From Gautieria morchelliformis (Eukaryota > Basidiomycota > Agaricomycetes > Gomphales > Gomphaceae), in NCBI GenBank assembly GCA_015179125.1, contig WHVA01000151.1:62001-126000 (forward strand): a stretch of DNA of 64,000 bases. The letters run 5' to 3'. Positions 4,317-51,380 of this stretch are shown here, piece by piece. Under the pieces are notes generated by a model. The model ran no database searches and was not told the origin of the DNA. It was given only the letters and a program-made list of their open reading frames with translations. The translations under genes were made by a program, and so were the position numbers. Position 1 is the first letter of the stretch, and each line of letters opens with the position of its first letter.

Positions 4317-7300
4317 TCAGTATGTACATTCTGCATCAATATCACTTTTGTCTTGCCAGTCATCCTCAATATACGCATCCTTGTCGGCATTCTCACCTAA
4401 TTCAGATGCATCAGAGTCTTTGCTGTCCCCACCTGAGCTGCGGCTGTCATCCGAGTCACTGTGCGTTGAATCGTCATCTCCCCCTGGTAGCCGCGATCCC
4501 CTGGGCTCGGGGTTTTCATATCGATCCATATCAGTCTCACCATCGGAAGAAACAGCATCGTGGCGATGATGGCTTGAAAGCGTGTCCGAGCTCGGTGGGT
4601 CATGGTCGATATTTCCTGTTTGACTGTGAATGTGGCCAATGCTGCCTCCCATATATTGCATGAGCATGTCTCGGTCAACCCATCTGTCAGGTATATAAGG
4701 ACCTCCGTGCATCAGGTCAAAGATGATGATGAGATACCTATTCACATAGAAGTATTCCCAGTCCCCTTCTGCTTCCCGAGCCAGGGAAGGGGGACAAAGT
4801 GAGTGCGTGTGGCCATGAGCAAACGCTGGAATGAGGTGTGCGGCTCTCACAATGGCCTTGGGGTCCAAGAATCTGGAAGCTTCATGGTCTTCGTGTGGGA
4901 CAAATCCCACCCGTTCCAGTCGTCTCACATTCCACCCGGATGAGTGGCTGGGATCATGACCAAACCACCTGACCCATAAGAATTCCAGTCGGGTGGGGGG
5001 TGTGAGTCCTTGACTTGAACGCAAAATGATGTTGGCGTGAAACACGCCCAGTACGCGTGCGTACCAGAAGGGATGAATTGCTGTAGAATGACTATCTTCA
5101 TTGGAAAATACCATGATGTCGCACTTTGAGGTCCGAGGACTGATTATGTCCTGATCCCGACGCACATCGTAAGTGGTAAAGTTGACCCGCAGGAAGGTGT
5201 GTTTGTAGATGTGATGGTGCTGGAAGAAAAGGGTTTCACATGCCTGTTCAGAGAATTCCTGCTCTTCGCCCGCCCCACCATGCCCATGGATCCGGGACAG
5301 CAGGTGATTTTTCAGTCTCATGATAAAATCCTAGGTTACCGCATGCCATCACATGGAAGTCCCACAGGAGTATTCAAGAAGTCTCACATTTGTGGCTGGA
5401 TCCTCAGCACATTGGGCCAACCAGTCCCCAAGATAAAGGGGGTTTCGTGGATCTTGCGCAATGTGATATGCTTGCGCAAGTGTGACAGGCTCGGATAGTT
5501 CAGTAGACCGACCTTCCAGCCCGACTTGGTGTTCAGGAACTGTAATGTTCCGTGCTTGCAGTTTCTGGGCACTGCGATGGATCTGCGCTGTGTGTTGGTC
5601 AAGTTTGGTCAGTTGGTGTGTGAACATTTTCTTGCTCAACCAGTTTCGATATCGTGATTTGACTTTGCGGTGAGACAGTTCGCCTGTCATGACGTGTTTA
5701 TTCTCATACTCAGGTGCTCTATCCTGCCATTTCTCACTCCATCTCCGTGTTCGTTCCGATCGCCATGGTCATGTTCGGCAACCAATTCGCGCTGTTCACG
5801 CCAATTACCATAGCCACACCATCAACACATGATCGACATCTTTGGACTGACTTGGAAGTCATTGCTGGGCCTATCACCTCCTCTGCTCGACCCTCTTCCA
5901 ATGGTGTTCTGAAAATCGGATTGTCATGACCTGTGTATTTCCTGCACCTTGTTATCCCCACTTCCCCTTTCACTACTCCTCCCCAGTGTTTGCCCTTCCT
6001 CGCATTTTGCCGAACAGCCATTCGCTGCTCGCATCATTCGCCAGCAGGCACATCATCAAATCACGATCGACATCCCTACCCGGCATGATGGCTCGTCAGT
6101 AACTCCATCAGCTTCTTGATCCAACCCCCTTTTGGTGTTCATATGAGCAGGGTGCATTCGTGGGACGTCCTACCCGTAGGTTGTGTGGGATCAACCCAGT
6201 AGACGAAGAACCCGTGCAGGGCAGTGCATATGCGGGCCCCAAGACATGATTTCGTAGGTGTCTTCTCCACCTTCACTCTCTGTCGTTTCATGTTCTCCCT
6301 CTTCTCTCATTCTATTGTATGTTTATTTCATCTATGTTGTATCATGACTGCGCACCCCTATCCAACCCTGACTCGTGACGGCCTCTTTCCTATTCGCTGA
6401 TACCTTATGAGCATTCGATATAAGTAGTTTACATTCGCATGCATATTCCCCAGTTCAATTATCATACGTCGTCCATCTTGTGCAAACTTGACCTCACTGC
6501 GATCATCGTCTTGAGCCTTCTCTTGGAGATTTCTATCTTCGACCAGCAGAGGACTTAGGCATCACTGGTGAGTTCTCATACTTCATCTTCGTTATCTTAG
6601 CCTTTGAACTATTCTCTGTGCTGTTGGCGAAGGGATTGTCGAGACTTAGACAGCCCTTCCGTGGGACCTTTCACGTTACATCGTCAAGTACCATGGGCTA
6701 TTTCGCTATGACTGTAGATAGGGTGAGCCCCGTTCGGGCAGCCCTCTTATCTTGTGAACATTTATTGGTTCACCTATTTGCCGAACGGCATACTTATTCG
6801 CACAAGTCATTCGGGCATTCGCTGTGTTCACTAATACACGATACTAACGCCTAAAAACCAATCTTGACATAGCCCTACATATGATATCTGTGTGTGAGTG
6901 TGGATGCCAGCATTGTGCATGGCCTGACGTACTATTTGCGTCGAATACGAGTCTGTGGTGCCGAATTCCCGTATGTCCTGGACATAGTGTCCCAGCGCAT
7001 GTAATTTGTAAGTCTTCAAGTTGAACGTCCGAGGCCGGCGTGTAGACTGGAAAGAGGTGGTCGTACCTACAGCCTGTTTACCCTTTGCCTGGCTCCCCAC
7101 CTCTTTCCTGGCGGCTGCACGAGCATGTGCGGCTGCCTCCCGCGGGGTCTCTCAAGTAGCAAACTGAGGACAGACGGTTTTTGAAAAGAAGCGGAGGGAT
7201 TGGCCAAGTTGAACGGTTATCGCGTCAAGTCGGTCAAGGGTATCCTCCATGTGCATGCAGAGTTTCGCGAGGCCATGCCACCAGGCTAAGATAAATAATA

Positions 7301-13062: not shown

Positions 13063-13440
13063 ATATATAAGAGTAATAATATCAACGTCCTCAACAAGGG
13101 GCAGCCGGCACGGCAACTGCCGGCCTCTAGATTCTTAGAACGTGACAGTATAATTATTACTCTTATATATATTATTACTCTTATATATATTATTACTCTT
13201 ATATATATTATTACTCTTATATATATTATTACTCTTATATATATTATTACTCTTATATATATTATTACTCTTATATATATTATTACTCTTATATATATTA
13301 TTACTCTTATATATATTATTACTCTTATATATATTATTACTCTTATATATATTATTACTCTTATATATATTATTACTCTTATATATATTATTACTCTTAT
13401 ATATATTATTACTCTTATATATATTATTACTCTTATATTA
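13063..13440. repeat. 18-bp AT-rich satellite, 16 units, with one inverted monomer
   Basis: The unit ATTATTACTCTTATATAT repeats without interruption from 13153 to 13440 (16 x 18 bp; the last unit is slightly altered). One monomer lies in inverse orientation at 13063-13080, separated by about 70 bp of unique DNA. The long open frame across it is only the repeat read through. Confidence 0.95.
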
Positions 13441-22839: not shown

Positions 22840-25372
22840 CTGGGGAGGTCGCGTGGCTTTCTCACCCCCCGAAGCTCTAGATAGTTATCTAGGGCTTCAA
22901 GGTCCTTGCAGGACAATATGGGTTCCCATGTCATGTCACCTAGGGTCCAGCGGACCTGGAACTCCAGGTCCGTCGAGTTTATCCATCAATGTGTGATAAT
23001 CTTGTCGATGAGCCACTCCTCGTCGTCATTCGCTCCAAAGTCATAAAATGACTTGGCCTCATGACGAGGGAACAATTCGTCGTTGTTAGCCTCGTATCAT
23101 CATACGAGGCTTGAATGGAAGACTGGTGAAATACGACGGCTTTTCAGCTTGTCAGGAAGATCAAGGGTCACCGTCGAGGTGTCGTTGTGAGCCTCGACGA
23201 CGCGGTACGGTCCGATGTACCGCAGGACTAGTTTTCTGGCTCTTCCTTTCGGGAGAGTTAGGTTCTGTGTTGAGAGGTAGATGCGGTCGTTGGCCACGTA
23301 CCTATCGCTTGCCATACGTTTCTTGTTTGCATGAAACATTTGCATCACTCGATGCTCTATGATTGCATCGTGTGCCACCATCAGGTTCCATTTTGCCTGA
23401 TGTGCGAACCGGGCTACCCCCTTGAACGGGGTGTCCACGGCTATGGGGAGGTCTATCCGCGGCATATAGCCATGGTTCAGCTTGAAGGGCGTGAACCCTG
23501 TGGTCGCGCTGACGTTGCTGTTGAGGGCGACCTCAACCATCGGGCATTTCAATGCCCAATCCTTCTGATCGTCTCTGACGACCGCGTGCAATATCTGACT
23601 GATCGAGCGGTTTGCCCGCTCAGTGGCTCCATCTGTTTGGGGATGGAAAGCAGTTGACATGAGGAGCTTAGTCCCCATGAGTCGCTGTAGTTCACGCCAA
23701 AAGATCGACGTGAACTTCGAGTCTCTATCTGAGACGATGGAGTCGGGAACTCCGTGCAGTCGAATGATCTCCTTCATGAACAGCCAGGCTACTCCCTTGG
23801 CTGACACGCTCGTCGTTGTTGGCACGAGGTGTACGAGCGATGTTAGTTGGTCGATGACTACCATCAGGTAGTCACAGTCATTGGACTTGGGCAGAGGCCC
23901 CATGAAGTCGATGCCAATCAACTGCCACCGCCTATCTGGAATGGGTAGGCTGTGTAGTAGGCCTTTGGGCCGTTGTGGCCTGGTTTTCATCATCTGACAC
24001 TTCGCGCACGATGTGCAGAACGACTCTATGTCTGGGCTCATCCCCAGCCACCAATATGATCTTTGAACGTAGTTCGAAGTCTTCAGATGGCCGTAGTGAC
24101 CAACTATCTGATGTGCCCAATCGATGATGATTTCAATCAGCCTCCTTCCCCCTTGAAGAACAGAGCGGGGGACAGCAATGACATCTCTTTTGAGCTGGTT
24201 TTTAGTCCAGATCAGCCCGTCCCGGATTCCGAATCTCGGGTGCACGTCCGGGTGCACCATGATCTTTGTGAACATGGCGTCCCTATGGTACGCGTCTCGT
24301 AAGACCTTAGACAGGTCTACACCTTGCTCGATGATCCGGTGCAGGGGTGCACTGTCATTTCCTGTGGCGATGACTCTGACATCATTGTCGTTGTCGTCGC
24401 GTGACGCGGCGACGTTGGTGGGCTTTTGTGGGCCCTTGTTTAATGCGGCGGATTCCATTATTCTTGCCTCTGTCTTCTCAGCGAGGCGTTTAGACCATCT
24501 CATCGCCGCTGTTTGCAGCTCGACATACCGGTTGGTGGGCAATAACTCACCATCCGGGTCTAAACGCACATCTGCGTTTACGAAGATGTGGTCCGGGTGA
24601 TTGTCATCACTCGTGTCGTTCTTGTAGTAGCGCGACAGGCAGTCTGCTACCTTGTACTCTACACCGTCGACATGAACAGTGTTGAAGTTGAACTGGGAGA
24701 GAAACTCCCACCATCTGACCTGGCGGTCAGACAGGCTCTTCTGGGTCTCGAAGTACTCGAGCCCTTTGTGGTCTGTGATGAGGGTGAACCTTCGCCCCAG
24801 CAGTTTGTCCTCCCATTTCATGAGAGCCTCGAGCACCACGATCGTCTCGTGCTCGTGAGTCCGGTAGTGTTGCTGAGCAATGCTGAACTTCTTTGACAAG
24901 AAGCCGGCAGGCCGACAGGTTTTCCAGTCGGGACCTTGGCCGTAGACCGCACCGACGCCGGCTTTTGACCCGTTGGGGATCACACAGATCGGCTCTGGGC
25001 ACCGTGTGTCTACTGGACGCAGGATCGGGGCCTTACAGGCCACCGCCTTAAGGCTTTGCCAGCATTTGTCTAGTAGTGGAGTCCATTCGAATGGACGGTT
25101 ATTACACACACAGCCCGATAGTGGGGTGGTATATGCGCTAACATCTGGCATGTAGTGTGCCAGATACTGTACCAGCCTGAGGAAATGCTGGATGTTGTTA
25201 AACATCCGTGGCCTATGCCACTCGCGGATGCGTTGCATCTTATCCTCGTCGGCATGTACCCCTCGGCCATCGATGATGTGGCCAAGACACTCCATTCGGA
25301 TGGAATAGAGGTCCACCTTTTTCTTGCTCAGAAAAAGGTGATTCTTCCTCAGTCTGTCAAAGACGATGTAGA
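22830..25372 (-). pseudogene. F pol, 3' half: RT end, RNase H, integrase, chromodomain
   Basis: It continues the RT frame from the far side of the palindrome (IVFDRLRKNHLFLSKKK), then RNase H (LITDHKGLEYF), and integrase with the HHCC finger (HQIVGHYGHL...CAKCQMM), catalytic IDFMGPLP, SDRDSKF and TDGATERANR. The body is open from 25316 to 23100. After two consecutive TGA codons (23097-23102) and a third (22986-22988), all where Arg fits, a chromodomain-like tail follows: WLIDKIITH, LEFQVRWTLGDMTWEP. The chromodomain would steer integration to chromatin. With the stops the integrase would lack it. Confidence 0.85.
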
Positions 25373-25930
25373 CACTGGAGGCATAGTAAGGTTTTTTGGT
25401 CCAAAAAACTGTGAAAAAACTTTGAAGATTTTCTGAGTGTTTTTTATATAAAAAAAACTTTAAAAAAATCTTGAGTTTTTTAAGAATTTCTCAATCTCAA
25501 AAAAGTGTGATAAAACTGTAAAAAAAAAGTTCAAAAAACTTTAAAAAAACACATAAAAAAATTCAAAGTTTCTTGAGACTTTTATGAATCAAGAAACTCT
25601 GTGAAAAATTTTGATTTTTTTCAAGATTTTTGAAAATATTGTAATAAAAATAGCCAAAAACTTTGGAAAAATTTAAAGTTTTTATTAGGGTTTTTTTGGT
25701 ATGAAAATCCTTGAGAAACTGAGGTTTTCCAAAGGTAAAAATTCTAATGAAATTTACGGTTTTTTTAGAATTTTTTGAGCAAGAAAATCAGGAAAATATT
25801 GTAAAAATAAATGTCAGAAAATTGTAAAGAAATTCAAAGTTTTTTCCAAGGGTTTTTAAGGGTTTTTTAAGGGTTTATTTGTGAAAAATATCCTTGAAAA
25901 ATATCAAGCTTTGGTTATTAGGGGGTTTCT
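25373..25930. repeat. AT-rich terminal domain of the giant foldback (left arm)
   Basis: About 560 bp of A/T runs after the 19-bp terminal repeat, with phrases like AAGGGTTTTTTAAGGGTTT and TTTGTGAAAA. Mirrored at about 33585-34141. The 405-bp foldback at 50520-50924 is built from the same kind of sequence, so this domain is the element's own body and the inner DNA is cargo. No coding potential. Confidence 0.8.
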
Positions 25931-25939
25931 TGGCTCAGC

Positions 25940-26700
25940 TAATTACACCTTGGCTACCCAGACTGCCCCCAAGCGGCTGGGACCGCTATATCTGCCCTTT
26001 CGCTATGTGCTGACTAAGCTCTCCGAGGCACGTCCAGCACTGATGGATGGTGGTCACGTGACCGTGTCGATGGAGAAATGGTATCGACCTAGAGGACAGC
26101 TGTCTCAAAAGGCTTCACTTTTGAGATAGTTTAGAGTAGACAATAATAGTAGACTCCCAATGAAGAATTGGAGAAAACTATTGAGATTTAAGTTCTGTAG
26201 CTATCAAACAAGACTACAGATACTTCAGGGGGTGAAACAGTAAATTCTGGATAATCGGTTCATACATTTGTGGTAGCTACTTATACTATAATAGTGATAA
26301 CTACCAGTGTTCAGGATAATGGGTAAATGGGTCAAAACACTATGTGTAACTAAAGGGGTGACTATTTGTACCCATAAAGATGGGGATAATGACAGGGGTG
26401 TTAGGCTTTGGAATAGAGTCTTGTACCTACTATACAAAGCCCCTGTCTACATGGTGTCAAGATAGTAATCAGCTGGTCGTGTCATGGAGCTCAATAGAAA
26501 ATAGAAAATAAGTGTCTCTTGCATAGCGTAAATGCTACTCTTGGTGATTGGGCCACTGTCTCTGTATGGGGCAGCTGATTGAGCATATGTGCTTGGAATG
26601 GTGTTCTGTCGTCATTCCGCAACGTTCGATGCTCCTGTGCAGTCTGTACTCCTCTGCGGCGTTTGGTGCCCGCACCTCCTCAGTGCTTTGCACCACCCAG
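25940..26700 (+). repeat. Partial repeat R (R3) in the left arm
   Basis: It shares with R1 and R2 the phrases CGGCTGGGACCGCTAT, TGTGCTGACTAAGC, GGTCACGTGACCGTGTCGA, TGTAGCTATCAAACAAGAC and CTCTGCGGCGTTTGGTGCCC. It lacks the last part of R, where a tandem repeat takes over. Mirrored at about 32815-33575 on the minus strand. Non-coding. Confidence 0.75.
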
Positions 26701-27501
26701 TACAATACCATGGATGCTACCCTGTAAGTTAACCAGTACACTACCCTGTGCCCTACCCTGTATGCTATCCTGTAAGCAACCCTGTATGCAACCCTGTAAG
26801 GTACCCTGTGGGCTACCCCATATGCTACCCTGTACACTACCTTGTTTGCTACACCATACACTGCTATGGAGTACGTTACCCTATAACATACTCTGTGTGC
26901 TACCCCATACACTACCATGTCCACCACCTGGTTCAGTACCCTGTGCACTATCCTGTGCACAACCTTGTATGCTGGCCAGTATGCCACCCTGTGTGCTACC
27001 CAGTGCACTACCATGTGCACTACCCCATACACTACCCTGTGTGCCACCCTGTGCACTACCCTTTACACTACCCTTTACACTACCCCCTATGCGGTACGCT
27101 ATCCTGTGAGCTACCCTGTACACTACCTATAATGTACACTGTGGGCTACCCCATACGCTACCCTGTACGCTACCATGTGCGCTACCCCATACACTACCCT
27201 GTCGGCTACATGGTACACTACCCCATGAGCTACCCTGTACGCTACCCTATAATGTACCCTGTGGGCTACCTCATGCACTACCCTGTATGCCACCCTGTGC
27301 ACTACCCTTTACGCTACCCCCTATGTGGTACACTATCCTGTGAGTTACCCTGTATGCTACCCTATAATGTACCCTGTGGGCTACCCCATACACTACCATG
27401 CTACCCCATACGCTACCCTGTACGCTACCATGTGCACTACCCCATACACTACCCTGTCAGCTACACGGTACGCTACCCCATGAGCTACCCTGTACTCTAC
27501 C
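26700..27501. repeat. 12-bp-based tandem repeat array (left arm)
   Basis: Degenerate units of the type YGCTACCCTGTA repeat for about 800 bp; higher-order blocks also recur (e.g. CCCTATAATGTACCCTGTGG). Mirrored at 32014-32815. Open frames such as the 314-codon Tyr/Pro/Val-rich one are only this repeat translated. Confidence 0.85.
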
Positions 27502-27951
27502 TGTTGAGGTTGTGTTCATACTGCAGTTTGGCTATACTAGGCTGCAACTCGGGTTTCAGGTCGGAAGGCTTGGCTTCAACCTCTTGGGTTGCGCCCACTC
27601 CATGCTCCACCCTAATTTCGGGATCAGTCTTGGCTATAAGCCGAGATACGGGTTTCGATAGCAAGCAAAGGGTCTCAAGTACGATAAGCTAATTTGATAT
27701 CTGAACTGAGGAGCTACTGTACATGGACTGGAGGTCTATATAGTAAAGTAGCATGCAGGGTCGCGAAGAGAACATGATCGGATCAATGTTCAGGGGAAAC
27801 AAGGGGCGGACAAATGGGGAACTAGTTAATAAGGGAATCAGGGGTGATGGGAAGTGCGAAGGGAAACCTGAAGGAAGCCAAGATATACCTGAGGTTCCCG
27901 AACAAGAGCCAAAGCCGAGCTTCGGTCCGGATACGGGAACGGGTTGTAACA
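27502..27951 (-). repeat. LTR family E (left arm copy)
   Basis: On the minus strand it begins TGTTACAACCCG and ends CTCAACA, about 450 bp. It is preceded by a Ty3-like polypurine tract (GGCCATAAGGGGGAGG on the minus strand, 27952-27970). It is thus the 3' LTR of a vanished Ty3 element whose antisense Cys-rich gene lies next to it. Mirrored at 31564-32013. A truncated copy lies at 39295-39688. Confidence 0.75.
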
Positions 27952-28085
27952 GTACCTCCCCCTTATGGCCGAACCCATGAGGCCATCAGCGAGATCCCGG
28001 AAATCACCAAGTCAGGGTAGTTACATAGGCTTTGTTTCGCGTTCTGCTTCTTGTCTTCTCCCATCATCATCAATTTCACGGATCA

Positions 28086-28897
28086 ATGTCAGAGACACAT
28101 GAAATCCCTATTGAGGTCGACGAGGTGGATGAAGTCGACGTGGAGCTCGTGCGGGCTGAGCGCGAAGCGGCAGGGCGGATGAGGGAATTGCAGGAAAAGC
28201 GGCGACTTGCGCAGGAGCGCAAGGCTGCAGTAGAGAAGAAACGGCTGGTGGATGCTGAAAAAGCCGAAGCGGAACAGAAGGCACAGGCTGAAGCCGCGTG
28301 GATTGCCAAAGAGGCGAAAAATGCCAAAGAGGCATGAAAAGCCGAGGAGGCTGGGGAGGAAGAGAGGTGGGTTTTGAAGGCGAAAGCCGACGAGGCTCGG
28401 AAACCAAAAGGGCCAATTTTTGAACGTGAGCGCCAGCGACTGATTGAAATGCTGGAAGCTGAAACAATTTGACAAGCTGATGTGGATCAGAATATCCACA
28501 TTCCATTGCCCGAGCCGTTGGCATTGGATTCAGCCACAGCGCAAGCACGGATTCTTGCTATGAAGCACACAGCCGACAGGAATGCGGCCAAGGGAAAGCC
28601 GAAAGCCTCGGGCTCTCGGAAATGGAAAATGACCGAGGAATCAGACGAGTCTGATGAAGAGGTGAGTCATTGGGTCAGGGTGGTTCGGGTATTTTTTGAC
28701 TTATGTTTTTTAGCGTGAACCTTGTGACGCATGCAGGCATCGCCTAGACCCGGTGCCTACGTGGAAAAAAGACCACGTGTCAGCAGTGCATGGACCGGAA
28801 GGTCCGGTGCAGCTTCCTGGATGGGAAGCGGAAGCGGAAGGATGAGGACGCGACCGAGGGACCGGGGCCGAAGAAGGCCAAGGTGTTTTTGGATTAA
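28086..28897 (+). pseudogene. Intron-bearing Cys-rich antisense gene, left arm copy
   Basis: ATG at 28086 (MSETHEIPIEVDEVDEVDVE). Then comes a long charged coiled coil (Ala/Glu/Lys/Arg-rich), a linker with IPLPEPLALDS, and an acidic stretch (TEESDESDEE). A canonical intron at 28662-28713 (GTGAGT...TAG) follows, then a zinc-cluster-like end: PCDACRHR, CLRGKKTTCQQC, DRKVRCSFLDGKRKRK, and a basic nuclear-type tail to a stop at 28895-28897. Two TGA codons (28335-28337, 28470-28472) stand where Arg fits, and one base is lost before CLRG. It runs antisense to LTR E, as its counterpart does in element G. A DNA- or RNA-binding role is a guess. Confidence 0.65.
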
Positions 28898-29189
28898 GAT
28901 GTTATTTGATGCCTTTAAAAAACAATTTGTATTGCTTAGCGGTTGGGACCGCTATGTCTGTCCCTCTCCTGTGTGCTGACTAAGCCTCTCTAGACGCGTC
29001 CGGCACTGATGGATGGAGGTCACGTGACCGTGTCGACAAGAGAATGGTGTTGATATAAGGGATAGCTAAGTCAAAAGGGTTCGCTTTTGAGGTAGTCTAG
29101 AGGAAGCAGTAATAGTGAGCTCTCAACGAAGAGTTGGAGCAAACTATCGAGATCTAAGTCCTGTAGCTATCAAACAAGACTATACAGGT
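28886..29189 (+). repeat. Partial repeat R (R4) in the left arm
   Basis: It begins TTTTTGGATTAAGATG, the R start, and so supplies the last codons and stop of the Cys-rich gene. It runs to TATCAAACAAGAC near 29182, then breaks into unrelated DNA. Mirrored at 30326-30629. Confidence 0.75.
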
Positions 29190-29369
29190 GTCGCCGGTCA
29201 AACCGTCGGGAACCATTGCGACGGTGGACATCCGTGCGGGCCCATTGGGGGCCAGGATTAAGGGCTTAACGCCCGACGGGTTTTTTGGAGCGGAGGTCTC
29301 CCAGATGGTGAGGGGTCTGTTGACTTGGCAGAGCAAGCGACTTGAATGGAGCAACCATTTGCTTCAGGG
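29190..29369. other. Unassigned arm segment with a short coherent frame
   Basis: Between R4 and the central array lies GC-rich DNA. Its plus frame reads PSGTIATVDIRAGPLGARIK and LTPDGFFGAEVSQMVRG. It looks protein-like but I do not recognise it. Mirrored at 30146-30325. It may be another captured piece. Confidence 0.35.
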
Positions 29370-30145
29370 CCTGTGCTACCATGTACACTACCAGGTACGC
29401 TACCACATGTGCTACCAGGTACACTACCACGTGTGCTACCACGTACGCTACCACCACTACCACATGCACCACCAGGTACACTACCACCGCTACCATGTGC
29501 AGTACCACGTACACTACCAGGTATGCTACCAGGTGCGCTACGAGGTGCGCTACCACGTACGCTACCAGGTAGGCTACCAGGAGCCCTACCACGTATGCTA
29601 CCATGTACACTACCACGTACGCTACCAGGTATGCTACCACGTACACTACCACGTACGGTACCATGTGGTAGCATACGTGGTAGTGTACATGGTAGCATAT
29701 GTGGTAGCGTACCTGGTAGTGTACGTGGTAGTGCACCTCGTAGCGCACCTGGTAGCATACCTGGTAGTGTACATGGTACTGCACATGGTAGCGGTGGTAG
29801 TGTACCTGGTGGTGCACGTGGTAGTGGTGGTAGCGTACGTGGTAGCACACGTGGTAGTGTACCTGGTAGCGCATATGGTAGCGTACCTGGTAGTGTACAT
29901 GGTAGCGCACCTGGTAGCGCACCGGGTAGCGTACCTGGTAGCATACATGGTAGCGTACGTGGTAGCGCACCTCGTAGCGCACCTGGTAGCATACCTGGTA
30001 GTGTACGTGGTACTGCACATGGTAGCGGTGGTAGTGTACCTGGTGGTGCATGTGGTAGTGGTGGTAGCGTACGTGGTAGCACACGTGGTAGTGTACCTGG
30101 TAGCACATGTGGTAGCGTACCTGGTAGTGTACATGGTAGCACAGG
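29370..30145. repeat. Central 12-bp quasi-palindromic tandem array and palindrome axis
   Basis: Units such as GCTACCAGGTAC, ACTACCACGTAC and CGCTACCACGTA run toward the axis and their complements run away from it. The mirror symmetry of the arms stops at about 29567 and 29948, leaving a spacer of roughly 380 bp built of the same units, with a local switch of strand near 29660. TACC-N-GGTA inside the unit is itself near-palindromic. The two mirrored 353-codon frames here are repeat translation, not genes. Confidence 0.85.
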
Positions 30146-30617
30146 CCCTGAAGCAAATGGTTGCTCCATTCAAGTCGCTTGCTCTGCCAAGTCAACAGAC
30201 CCCTCACCATCTGGGAGACCTCCGCTCCAAAAAACCCGTCGGGCGTTAAGCCCTTAATCCTGGCCCCCAATGGGCCCGCACGGATGTCCACCGTCGCAAT
30301 GGTTCCCGACGGTTTGACCGGCGACACCTGTATAGTCTTGTTTGATAGCTACAGGACTTAGATCTCGATAGTTTGCTCCAACTCTTCGTTGAGAGCTCAC
30401 TATTACTGCTTCCTCTAGACTACCTCAAAAGCGAACCCTTTTGACTTAGCTATCCCTTATATCAACACCATTCTCTTGTCGACACGGTCACGTGACCTCC
30501 ATCCATCAGTGCCGGACGCGTCTAGAGAGGCTTAGTCAGCACACAGGAGAGGGACAGACATAGCGGTCCCAACCGCTAAGCAATACAAATTGTTTTTTAA
30601 AGGCATCAAATAACATC

Positions 30618-31429
30618 TTAATCCAAAAACACCTTGGCCTTCTTCGGCCCCGGTCCCTCGGTCGCGTCCTCATCCTTCCGCTTCCGCTTCCCATCCAGGA
30701 AGCTGCACCGGACCTTCCGGTCCATGCACTGCTGACACGTGGTCTTTTTTCCACGTAGGCACCGGGTCTAGGCGATGCCTGCATGCGTCACAAGGTTCAC
30801 GCTAAAAAACATAAGTCAAAAAATACCCGAACCACCCTGACCCAATGACTCACCTCTTCATCAGACTCGTCTGATTCCTCGGTCATTTTCCATTTCCGAG
30901 AGCCCGAGGCTTTCGGCTTTCCCTTGGCCGCATTCCTGTCGGCTGTGTGCTTCATAGCAAGAATCCGTGCTTGCGCTGTGGCTGAATCCAATGCCAACGG
31001 CTCGGGCAATGGAATGTGGATATTCTGATCCACATCAGCTTGTCAAATTGTTTCAGCTTCCAGCATTTCAATCAGTCGCTGGCGCTCACGTTCAAAAATT
31101 GGCCCTTTTGGTTTCCGAGCCTCGTCGGCTTTCGCCTTCAAAACCCACCTCTCTTCCTCCCCAGCCTCCTCGGCTTTTCATGCCTCTTTGGCATTTTTCG
31201 CCTCTTTGGCAATCCACGCGGCTTCAGCCTGTGCCTTCTGTTCCGCTTCGGCTTTTTCAGCATCCACCAGCCGTTTCTTCTCTACTGCAGCCTTGCGCTC
31301 CTGCGCAAGTCGCCGCTTTTCCTGCAATTCCCTCATCCGCCCTGCCGCTTCGCGCTCAGCCCGCACGAGCTCCACGTCGACTTCATCCACCTCGTCGACC
31401 TCAATAGGGATTTCATGTGTCTCTGACAT
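30618..31429 (-). pseudogene. Intron-bearing Cys-rich antisense gene, right arm copy
   Basis: Mirror copy of the gene at 28086-28897, with the same ATG context, coiled coil, intron and Cys motifs and the same two TGA codons. The lesions are shared exactly, so they predate the duplication that made the palindrome, or the arms are kept alike by gene conversion. Confidence 0.65.
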
Positions 31430-31563
31430 TGATCCGTGAAATTGATGATGATGGGAGAAGACAAGAAGCAGAACGCGAAACAAAGCCTATGTAACTACCC
31501 TGACTTGGTGATTTCCGGGATCTCGCTGATGGCCTCATGGGTTCGGCCATAAGGGGGAGGTAC

Positions 31564-32013
31564 TGTTACAACCCGTTCCCGTATCCGGACCGAAGCTCGG
31601 CTTTGGCTCTTGTTCGGGAACCTCAGGTATATCTTGGCTTCCTTCAGGTTTCCCTTCGCACTTCCCATCACCCCTGATTCCCTTATTAACTAGTTCCCCA
31701 TTTGTCCGCCCCTTGTTTCCCCTGAACATTGATCCGATCATGTTCTCTTCGCGACCCTGCATGCTACTTTACTATATAGACCTCCAGTCCATGTACAGTA
31801 GCTCCTCAGTTCAGATATCAAATTAGCTTATCGTACTTGAGACCCTTTGCTTGCTATCGAAACCCGTATCTCGGCTTATAGCCAAGACTGATCCCGAAAT
31901 TAGGGTGGAGCATGGAGTGGGCGCAACCCAAGAGGTTGAAGCCAAGCCTTCCGACCTGAAACCCGAGTTGCAGCCTAGTATAGCCAAACTGCAGTATGAA
32001 CACAACCTCAACA
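31564..32013 (+). repeat. LTR family E (right arm copy)
   Basis: Mirror of 27502-27951, starting TGTTACAACCCG. In this orientation the LTR reads plus and the adjacent Cys-rich gene (30618-31429) reads minus, toward the missing pol side. The right-hand border meets the tandem repeat at CTCAACA/GGTAG. Confidence 0.75.
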
Positions 32014-34141
32014 GGTAGAGTACAGGGTAGCTCATGGGGTAGCGTACCGTGTAGCTGACAGGGTAGTGTATGGGGTAGTGCACATGGTAGCGTACAGGGT
32101 AGCGTATGGGGTAGCATGGTAGTGTATGGGGTAGCCCACAGGGTACATTATAGGGTAGCATACAGGGTAACTCACAGGATAGTGTACCACATAGGGGGTA
32201 GCGTAAAGGGTAGTGCACAGGGTGGCATACAGGGTAGTGCATGAGGTAGCCCACAGGGTACATTATAGGGTAGCGTACAGGGTAGCTCATGGGGTAGTGT
32301 ACCATGTAGCCGACAGGGTAGTGTATGGGGTAGCGCACATGGTAGCGTACAGGGTAGCGTATGGGGTAGCCCACAGTGTACATTATAGGTAGTGTACAGG
32401 GTAGCTCACAGGATAGCGTACCGCATAGGGGGTAGTGTAAAGGGTAGTGTAAAGGGTAGTGCACAGGGTGGCACACAGGGTAGTGTATGGGGTAGTGCAC
32501 ATGGTAGTGCACTGGGTAGCACACAGGGTGGCATACTGGCCAGCATACAAGGTTGTGCACAGGATAGTGCACAGGGTACTGAACCAGGTGGTGGACATGG
32601 TAGTGTATGGGGTAGCACACAGAGTATGTTATAGGGTAACGTACTCCATAGCAGTGTATGGTGTAGCAAACAAGGTAGTGTACAGGGTAGCATATGGGGT
32701 AGCCCACAGGGTACCTTACAGGGTTGCATACAGGGTTGCTTACAGGATAGCATACAGGGTAGGGCACAGGGTAGTGTACTGGTTAACTTACAGGGTAGCA
32801 TCCATGGTATTGTACTGGGTGGTGCAAAGCACTGAGGAGGTGCGGGCACCAAACGCCGCAGAGGAGTACAGACTGCACAGGAGCATCGAACGTTGCGGAA
32901 TGACGACAGAACACCATTCCAAGCACATATGCTCAATCAGCTGCCCCATACAGAGACAGTGGCCCAATCACCAAGAGTAGCATTTACGCTATGCAAGAGA
33001 CACTTATTTTCTATTTTCTATTGAGCTCCATGACACGACCAGCTGATTACTATCTTGACACCATGTAGACAGGGGCTTTGTATAGTAGGTACAAGACTCT
33101 ATTCCAAAGCCTAACACCCCTGTCATTATCCCCATCTTTATGGGTACAAATAGTCACCCCTTTAGTTACACATAGTGTTTTGACCCATTTACCCATTATC
33201 CTGAACACTGGTAGTTATCACTATTATAGTATAAGTAGCTACCACAAATGTATGAACCGATTATCCAGAATTTACTGTTTCACCCCCTGAAGTATCTGTA
33301 GTCTTGTTTGATAGCTACAGAACTTAAATCTCAATAGTTTTCTCCAATTCTTCATTGGGAGTCTACTATTATTGTCTACTCTAAACTATCTCAAAAGTGA
33401 AGCCTTTTGAGACAGCTGTCCTCTAGGTCGATACCATTTCTCCATCGACACGGTCACGTGACCACCATCCATCAGTGCTGGACGTGCCTCGGAGAGCTTA
33501 GTCAGCACATAGCGAAAGGGCAGATATAGCGGTCCCAGCCGCTTGGGGGCAGTCTGGGTAGCCAAGGTGTAATTAGCTGAGCCAAGAAACCCCCTAATAA
33601 CCAAAGCTTGATATTTTTCAAGGATATTTTTCACAAATAAACCCTTAAAAAACCCTTAAAAACCCTTGGAAAAAACTTTGAATTTCTTTACAATTTTCTG
33701 ACATTTATTTTTACAATATTTTCCTGATTTTCTTGCTCAAAAATTCTAAAAAAACCGTAAATTTCATTAGAATTTTTACCTTTGGAAAACCTCAGTTTCT
33801 CAAGGATTTTCATACCAAAAAAACCCTAATAAAAACTTTAAATTTTTCCAAAGTTTTTGGCTATTTTTATTACAATATTTTCAAAAATCTTGAAAAAATC
33901 AAAATTTTTCACAGAGTTTCTTGATTCATAAAAGTCTCAAGAAACTTTGAATTTTTTTATGTGTTTTTTTAAAGTTTTTTGAACTTTTTTTTTACAGTTT
34001 TATCACACTTTTTTGAGATTGAGAAATTCTTAAAAAACTCAAGATTTTTTTAAAGTTTTTTTTTATATAAAAAACACTCAGAAAATCTTCAAAGTTTTTT
34101 CACAGTTTTTTGGACCAAAAAACCTTACTATGCCTCCAGTG
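32014..34141. repeat. Right arm outer part: tandem repeat, R piece, AT-rich tip
   Basis: Mirror image of 25373-27501: tandem array (32014-32815), R piece (about 32815-33575, minus), AT-rich tip to the CAGTG end at 34141. Small length differences in homopolymers relative to the left arm (for example 9 versus 8 in one run) show the two arms are not a simple copy in the sequence record. Confidence 0.85.
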
Positions 34142-34144
34142 AGA

Positions 34145-34760
34145 GGTGCTCTTCATTCTCTTGTATTGAGAGCGAGAATATGAAGATGTCATCCATGTAT
34201 ACATGGACGAAGCGACCTATGCAGTCGCGGAAAATGGCTGTCATCAGCCGTTGGAATGTTGATGGGGCGTTAGAGTCTCTCATATGTATCACCTGGCTCC
34301 TAAACGTGCCAAGGATCGTGGCAAAGGCAGTCTTTGCTACGTGATCCGGATGGATCGGAATCTGCTTGTATGCTCCCAACATATCGAGTTTTGTTCGATA
34401 CGACAGCGAGCCATGTCGCTGCGGATGATATCCTGATCCGGGAAGGGTGTGACGTCCTTCACCGTGTTCTCGTTCTGCTGACGCAGATCGAAGACGGTTC
34501 GTAATGTACTGTTCTTCTTCAGCACACACAGCATGGGCAAGGCCTGCTGCGCAACTGCCGGAATCCACCACTTTGCAGTGGTGTATCTTTCCATCTTAGC
34601 CGACAGTTCCTCTCAGAAGTGTTCGGGGCATTTCGGTAGTCAATACCGCATGTGCTTGTTGGGATCGATGAAGTTGATCTCATGGTTGATCTCCCGTAGT
34701 GGCGGGAGTTCTAATGGAATTCCACTGACTAGGTCAGTGATTCATTCCATCCATTCCTAG
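34145..34760 (-). pseudogene. F pol, RT N-terminal part
   Basis: Minus strand: INHEINFIDPN, YRLPKCPEHF-stop-EEL, KWWIPAVAQQALPM, TLRTVFDLRQQN, PFPDQDIIRSDMA, then after a frame shift KLDMLGAYKQIPIHPDH and the catalytic HVYMDDIFIFS near 34190, ending EENEEHL-type sequence at the palindrome. The TGA at 34613-34615 fits a lost Arg. Pairs with 22830-25372 to make one pol. Confidence 0.85.
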
Positions 34761-50361: not shown

Positions 50362-51380
50362 TCGAAGATAGAAATCTATAGGAGAGGGCTCAAGATGATG
50401 GTCACAGTGAGGTCAAGTTTTGCACAAGATAGATGTATGATAATTGAACTGGGGAATGTACATGCGAATGTAAACTACTTATACCGAATGCTCATATGAT
50501 GCTAGGGAATAGGAAAGAGCACTGCAGGCATATAAAAGTTTTCTTGTCTGAAATACTGCTGAAAAAACTGTAAAAATTTTCCAAAAATCTTTAGTGTTTC
50601 TTATGTAAAAAAAAACTATAATAAAATTTTGTGTTTTTATTAGAATTTGTTGAGCAAGAAAGTGGTAAAAAATTTAAAAGTTTTTTTCAGGGTTTTTTAT
50701 GGGTTTCTTTGTGAAAACAAAGAAACTTATAAAAAGACATAAAAAAATCTGCAAAAAAACTTTAAACTTTTTTACAATTTTCTTGCTCAACAAATTATTA
50801 CAAAAACACAAACATAAAATTTTATTAAAGTTTTTTTACATTTAAAACACTAAAAAAATTTGGCATATCTTTACAGTTTTTTGAACAGTTTTTCAGACCG
50901 GAAAATCCTTATATGCCTCCAGTGGAGGCTGTCTTGAGTCAGGGTTGGATAGGGGTGCACAGTCAGGATACAAATAGATGAAACACAGATACAATGGAAG
51001 AGGAGAGGAGTGTGAACATGAAACAATGGAGGGAGAGAGGATGAAGGTATCTATGTAAGAAACCACGCCTTGAGACCTGCATACATGTTACCCTGCACGG
51101 ACTCTTCGTCTGCTGGGTTGATCCCACACGATCTATGGGTAGGACGTTCCATGAATGCATTGCGGTCATACGAACACCTAAAGGGGTCAAGTCGGGAAGA
51201 TGACGGGGCCAGTGATGAACCATCACACCAGGTAAAGGATGTCAATCATGTTGGGTGGCATGCCTGCTGGTGAATGATGCAAGTAGTGAATGGTCATTCA
51301 GTGAATTTGGCAAGGAGCAAATGGAGCAAACATGGAGGAGGAGTGGCAAAGGGGAAAGTAGGGGTAGCTGGGACATTCCT
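50362..51380 (-). mobile_element. LTR family A, inverse partial copy A3
   Basis: The reverse complement of A1/A2 runs from the edge of element G (TCGAAGATAGAAATC) through GTAAACTACTTATA, GTCAGGGTTGGATAGGGG and GTTGATCCCACACGA to about 51380, then fades into Copia integrase. A 405-bp foldback (50520-50924) interrupts it. Element G appears to have landed inside it. Its far ends are not defined. Confidence 0.7.
50520..50924. mobile_element. 405-bp foldback MITE with CACTG ends
   Basis: The left end is CACTGCAGGCATATAAAAG and the right end, inverted, is CACTGGAGGCATATAAGGA. GAG flanks it at 50517-50519 and 50925-50927. Deleting it restores LTR A sequence (AGGAAAGAG-GCTG). It is AT-rich and folds back on itself around the centre near 50720 (GTTTCTTTGTG / CAAAGAAAC). 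The ends and body resemble the giant element at 25373-34141. Confidence 0.88.

Follow-up and report, generated by a model that had tools for sequence, protein, structure and literature searches.

The window analysed here is a 64,000-bp stretch of the Gautieria morchelliformis genome (contig WHVA01000151.1 of assembly GCA_015179125.1, i.e., C173:62001-126000), in which a palindromic (foldback) element of 8,769 bp interrupts the reverse transcriptase (RT) gene of a Ty3-type retrotransposon (Table 1). Both ends of the element carry the tip CACTGGAGGCATAGTAAGG, at 25373 on the forward and at 34141 on the reverse strand, with AGA on either side as a target-site duplication (TSD), and the initial annotation had placed coordinates, tips and AGA repeats correctly. 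Alignment of the two arms from the tips to 29567 and 29948 (4,195 and 4,194 bases) revealed no substitutions and three differences, all of them single-base indels in A/T runs (at 25449, 25615 and 25771) within the first 400 bp. Further inwards, 25772-29567 and 29948-33743 are exact reverse complements over 3,796 bases. Of the 86 differing columns in the arm alignment, 83 lie inside 29568-29947. The palindrome is present in the sequence as described and is imperfect at its axis: its annotation as near-perfect holds for the arms, which are free of substitutions over 4.19 kb, and fails for the central 380 bp, which are unmirrored.

This centre is a 12-bp satellite array with a unit like GCTACCACGTAC, the orientation of which switches near 29664. 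The identity of the arms ends abruptly within the satellite, at 29567/29948, and the sides diverge beyond, where the centre-proximal arrays are ~77-88% similar when compared in mirror register. The centre is predicted to fold, as single-stranded DNA, with -117.8 kcal/mol versus a mean of -81.4 kcal/mol for 100 shuffles (z -8.7). The arms indeed contain satellites and other repeats, as initially annotated; the gene that they were said to have captured turned out to be a degenerate module, of which two window open reading frames (ORFs) gave no Pfam match in profile searches. In searches of the assembly (122 Mb, 1,113 contigs), the first 601 bp of this module (query 27503-28103) recurred with 86-94% identity at no fewer than 38 other places. 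With very long terminal inverted repeats (TIRs) that hold internal tandem repeats, and with little or no unique centre, the element has the build of a foldback element.

The flanks of the element are different halves of one retrotransposon gene. Specifically, the right half matches RVT_1 (profile positions 62-165 of 205), and the left half holds the RNase H, H2C2 and integrase core parts of the Ty3-type pol, with a protease further upstream. Upon removal of the element and one TSD (8,772 bp, i.e., 3 x 2,924 bp), the two halves share one codon phase. Each flank matched at least 39 other retrotransposon copies (94-96% identity for the left and 93-95% for the right flank), and nine places were common to both lists (C893, C161, C178, C454, C227, C291, C504, C2 and C191). 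At all nine, the left and right matches overlapped by exactly 3 bp, as expected of empty sites. In C636, C245 and C371 both flanks were matched as well, but at unrelated places. A query for an allelic contig, taken from the neighbouring stretch, was itself a repeat with at least 39 other copies.

The 3-bp TSD and the nine empty paralogous sites indicate that the element inserted as one unit, and the earlier claims of a single-unit insertion, of an RT frame restored by its removal and of flanks from one gene were borne out. Since the same 3-bp TSD is found at two different flanks, an assembly error is less likely, and we are highly confident that this is a real insertion of a real palindrome. 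Moreover, the three arm differences suggest two separately called arms, though homopolymer noise could account for them.

Table 1. Positions in the window of the palindromic element, its parts and the interrupted retrotransposon
Feature	Position	Strand	Basis
Foldback element (entire palindrome), 8,769 bp	25373..34141	.	Self-comparison against the reverse strand; AGA TSD and a 19-bp tip at each end
Left TSD, AGA	25370..25372	+	3-bp overlap at 9/9 empty paralogous sites
Right TSD, AGA	34142..34144	+	Arm alignment, flank searches
Left tip CACTGGAGGCATAGTAAGG, 19 bp	25373..25391	+	Tip search
Right tip CACTGGAGGCATAGTAAGG, 19 bp	34123..34141	-	Tip search
Left arm, mirrored without substitution, three one-base indels	25373..29567	+	Arm alignment
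Right arm	29948..34141	-	Arm alignment
12-bp tandem array 1, left arm	26716..27501	+	
12-bp tandem array 1, right arm	32014..32799	-	
Degenerate repeat module, left arm	27503..28886	+	
300-bp dispersed repeat inserted in left arm, GGTGT each side	28887..29186	+	
Same 300-bp dispersed repeat, right arm	30329..30628	-	Mirror position in arm alignment
Unmirrored centre, 380 bp, inverted 12-bp arrays	29568..29947	.	Orientation flip near 29664
Interrupted Ty3-type retrotransposon, RNase H and integrase part	23100..25316	-	
Interrupted Ty3-type retrotransposon, RT part (last codons within element tip)	34128..34571	-	

Elsewhere in the window, a near-identical tandem repeat occupies 13149-13438, with 99.6% identity across 255 bp when offset by 35 bp. 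The closest named relative of the 334-aa ORF at 4317-5321 is from Clathrus columnatus (53% identity over 69%) and ranks below nine unnamed hits, so that the ORF can be described only as agaricomycete-like.

Relatives sharing the tip or the arm

The tip was found at 417 places when up to three mismatches were allowed (209 forward, 208 reverse), versus 24 (12 + 12) for a reversed-pattern control; comparisons with tip places below use 100 listed ones of these 417, of which 74 have at most one mismatch. Sixteen two-tip elements were examined, and 15 of them showed a 3-bp TSD (CAA, TTA, TCA, TAT, CCA, CAA, TAA, TAT, GGG, GTT, TAC, TTA, TTG, AAA and AGA), with L024 lacking one; L038 and L042 represent one site, since they have their flanks in common. 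Twelve of the 16 are no longer than 1.04 kb. Seven of these short elements are palindromic throughout, with arms that are 83-93% identical, and the other five (L028, L035, L037, L038 and L042) are mirrored only over their terminal 110-151 bp (75-89%). Further tip pairs among the listed places, at C130 and C216, lie outside the 16 elements. The window itself holds a second member of the tip family, i.e., a 405-bp element at 50520-50924 with four mismatches per tip and GAG on both sides.

A search with the arm listed 67 match rows, several per place, and 15 large sister loci were fetched. Arm positions 1-1343 were 93-95% identical in 14 of them, and C601 matched in pieces of 90-96%. Comparison of their flanks grouped the sisters into seven insertion sites besides that of the window (C208/C994/C279/C606/C378; C882/C896; C210/C1103/C962; C48/C296; C445; C1018; C601), with shared flanks within groups being 98-99.9% identical. 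At the site with five copies, i.e., C208 (L012, L031), C994 (L014), C279 (L013, L033), C606 (L015) and C378 (L019), flank identity was 98-99%, and C208 and C994 carry the internal segment between satellite arrays in the opposite orientation to that of C279. The satellite arrays of the sisters occur in both orientations, and five of the 15 loci, from two insertion sites, bear a module of an array, a ~315-bp spacer and an inverted array (C208, C994, C279, C378 and C882; locus labels L012, L014, L013, L019 and L010, respectively). Among the satellite matches listed, most though not all were in contigs with the tip family.

An opposite tip with up to four mismatches was not seen in the examined stretches of the 15 sisters, which stop at contig ends (C994, C882 and C210) or at the ends of the fetched sequence (the rest); in C601, an additional weak tip points the same way. 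The locus C383:94228-112197 holds the arm module twice, in opposite orientations and at a distance of 15 kb; in the stretches fetched only one copy had a tip, none being present at the second with up to five mismatches. Within the stretches examined, neither this locus nor the 15 sisters could be retained as other large palindromes with two tips.

Origin of the palindrome and its mobiliser

The 300-bp dispersed repeat, other genomic copies of which are up to 97% identical, is absent from all six sisters that cover its site (C606, C279, C208, C994, C445 and C882, representing three insertion sites). Since both arms share an insertion that is missing from these sisters, the last arm-to-arm copying took place after this insertion. 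Moreover, duplicated copies at one sister site are only 97.6-99.5% identical in their interiors, and the lack of substitutions between the window arms, as opposed to the 90-96% identity of sister arms, argues for recent copying. These comparisons indicate that the palindrome was made, or its arms were last equalised, recently.

The best explanation, and in our judgement a probable one, is that the element is a non-autonomous PIF/Harbinger-type DNA transposon in which one end of a longer, single-armed relative is present twice, in mirror image. As to how the arms became identical, we lean towards a recent strand switch that made the palindrome, rather than the equalising of an old one. The donor would then have been a single-armed element that already carried the 300-bp insertion, and pairing between inverted units of the 12-bp satellite may have allowed DNA synthesis to switch strands or fold back there and to copy the arm back out past its tip. 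A transposase provided in trans by an intact relative could subsequently have excised the 8.8-kb unit at its identical tips and inserted it into the Ty3-type RT gene. The abrupt end of arm identity inside the array fits copying begun inside an inverted array, and the inversion of C208 versus C279, with its ends at arrays, counts in favour of the strand switch as well.

A number of observations weigh against this explanation. The arrays in the window meet without a spacer, whereas the inverted modules of the sisters have one of ~315 bp, and the donor centre was not seen. A pre-existing array-spacer-array module as donor centre was rejected, the 315-bp spacer being absent from the window. Comparison of the centre with the sister arrays left its source ambiguous, as the arrays are too alike. 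Furthermore, likeness to the outer (A) array is 92% for the inner (B) array of the same element and at most 86% for the arrays of the sisters, and the palindrome is known from the assembly alone.

The 92% likeness of inner and outer arrays would be explained as well or better by a foldback element of greater age, the long arms of which had diverged before gene conversion recently equalised them; the 380-bp centre would then constitute an unconverted stretch. The centre-proximal arrays, diverged in mirror register while everything outside them is identical, are in line with this alternative, as are the seven smaller same-tip palindromes and the possibility, argued for Galileo in the accounts considered below, that long inverted repeats attract recombination and conversion. 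However, the small same-tip palindromes have not been equalised, and no old large palindrome was found among the 15 relatives (seven sites), although this last point carries little weight as their stretches end at contig or fetch limits. We regard such equalising as a possible but rather unlikely origin, and retain the strand switch as the preferred one.

With regard to the mobiliser, the palindrome itself encodes no DDE_Tnp_4 transposase, and such a transposase is present in relatives with the same tips. Specifically, L030 (5,977 bp, TSD AAA, both tips perfect) matched DDE_Tnp_4 with an E-value of 7.2e-12, and L044, of which one tip was found (with one mismatch) and the right end was sought without success, did so with 3.6e-14. 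Both have the end and subterminal region in common, and a 2.5-kb stretch including the transposase region is 84% identical between them. A third locus, L045, matched DDE_Tnp_4 with an E-value of 2e-23, its end match being weak and covering 22 bp of one tip only. In addition, a listed match to PF13359 (152 matches genome-wide) lies within 6 kb of three of the 74 listed tips with zero or one mismatch (C139, C402 and C316, the last with the match on the outer side); since about one such case would be expected by chance according to a hand estimate, this nearness adds little. What carries the PIF/Harbinger reading is L030, an element bounded by two perfect tips and a TSD, together with the agreement of L044, and the ends shared with these relatives make it likely that the mobiliser is of the PIF/Harbinger type.

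Several findings argue in the opposite direction. The TWA rule of PIF/Harbinger proper fits three of the 15 TSDs, the TSD in the window being AGA, and similarity of the arm to the ends of L030 and L044 is confined to the terminal 60-265 bp (~77-87%). A test for a Myb/SANT second ORF yielded best E-values of 0.026 (L030) and 0.059 (L044), below the Pfam cut-offs. Finally, the two-tip element L029 (C1015:224690-230990; 6,233 bp, perfect left tip, TSD TTG) carries two ORF copies and an internal partial tip; the ORF copy tested had no Pfam match, and its relatives are DDE_3-like, not DDE_Tnp_4, with one PF13358 protein and one named transposase among the 120 listed.

The element had initially been labelled CACTA-type, and a CACTA/EnSpm (CMC) foldback element would indeed account for the CACTR termini and for a TSD within the short range (2-4 bp) of that group, in a genome with 79 matches to the CACTA-type PF02992. 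In a comparison by eye, the 100 listed tip places had none of these 79 within 15 kb, and no CMC-type transposase was found in the same-tip elements, two of which (L030 and L044) carry DDE_Tnp_4 instead. Since CACT ends and a 3-bp TSD do not discriminate, the label was abandoned and a CACTA origin appears improbable; the best reading of these sequences is a non-autonomous PIF/Harbinger-type foldback element. The lack of reads and the ending of contigs C994, C882 and C210 inside such elements might speak for an artefact in which the assembler, or hairpin reads, turned a single-armed insertion palindromic. This is likewise improbable, as the flanks differ and yet each is joined to a perfect tip and an identical TSD, the empty sites agree to the base, and three arm differences and an unmirrored centre are unexpected from plain in-silico copying of one arm.

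Comparison with known foldback elements

FARE and other plant foldback elements are large and carry sequence inside long TIRs, and the window element, a recent insertion, is an extreme example of this known kind. No Harbinger foldback or palindromic element in fungi turned up in the literature listings searched, which does not prove its absence from print. Likeness to PIF/Harbinger (PHIS) elements lies in the DDE_Tnp_4 of the same-tip relatives, the 3-bp TSD and the small palindromic copies, and Harbinger relatives are described as making TSDs of 0, 2 or 3 bp (PMC12730594). Unlike in the PHIS groups as characterised in the relevant part of PMC4482050, the TSDs of the family are neither TWA nor plainly the ANT, CWG or TNA of other groups, and its tip begins with C rather than with A or G.

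The inverted duplication of one end of a transposable element is also seen in Mu killer (Muk) of the maize Mutator system, where a single end gave rise to both TIRs, and the centre in which the two halves meet resisted sequencing (PMC3440606). The halves of this Mutator derivative extend 1.3 kb into mudrA; Muk silences MuDR, and the same account traces this silencing to antisense transcripts from inside Muk and not to read-through (PMC3440606). Unlike Muk, the window element has arms of 4.2 kb, belongs to a Harbinger-like family and is known here from its sequence alone.

Galileo (P superfamily, Drosophila) resembles it in its long, internally repetitive TIRs, in TIR extension by copying of inward sequence, in its chimeric copies and in its role in inversions, but differs by its 7-8-bp TSD and P-type transposase, and the passages on its structure describe no 4-kb identical arms (PMC3573991, PMC4168063). 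Tetris of Drosophila virilis is likewise a non-autonomous foldback, the TIRs of which contain tandem repeats that form longer arrays elsewhere; the account of it reports an 8-10-bp TSD, a suggested Mutator affiliation and 220-bp repeats, as opposed to 12-bp ones here (PMC4079207).

The origin, survival and movement of long palindromes are an open question, and the window element is useful for studying their origin: its substitution-free arms, the insertion common to both, by which events can be ordered, the diverged relatives with a single visible arm and the short unmirrored centre at the turning point together form a legible record of one case. Were it transcribed, the locus would become a candidate for silencing its family through RNA. 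As a speculation to which we give only slight credence, the inverted 12-bp satellite might serve as a built-in turning point, at which any strand switch during synthesis turns one end, in one step, into a mobile palindrome with two ends. Given transcription from inside it or from the host retrotransposon, the 4.2-kb hairpin locus formed in this way could act as a natural counterpart of Mu killer, silencing a transposon family whose tips number in the hundreds genome-wide.

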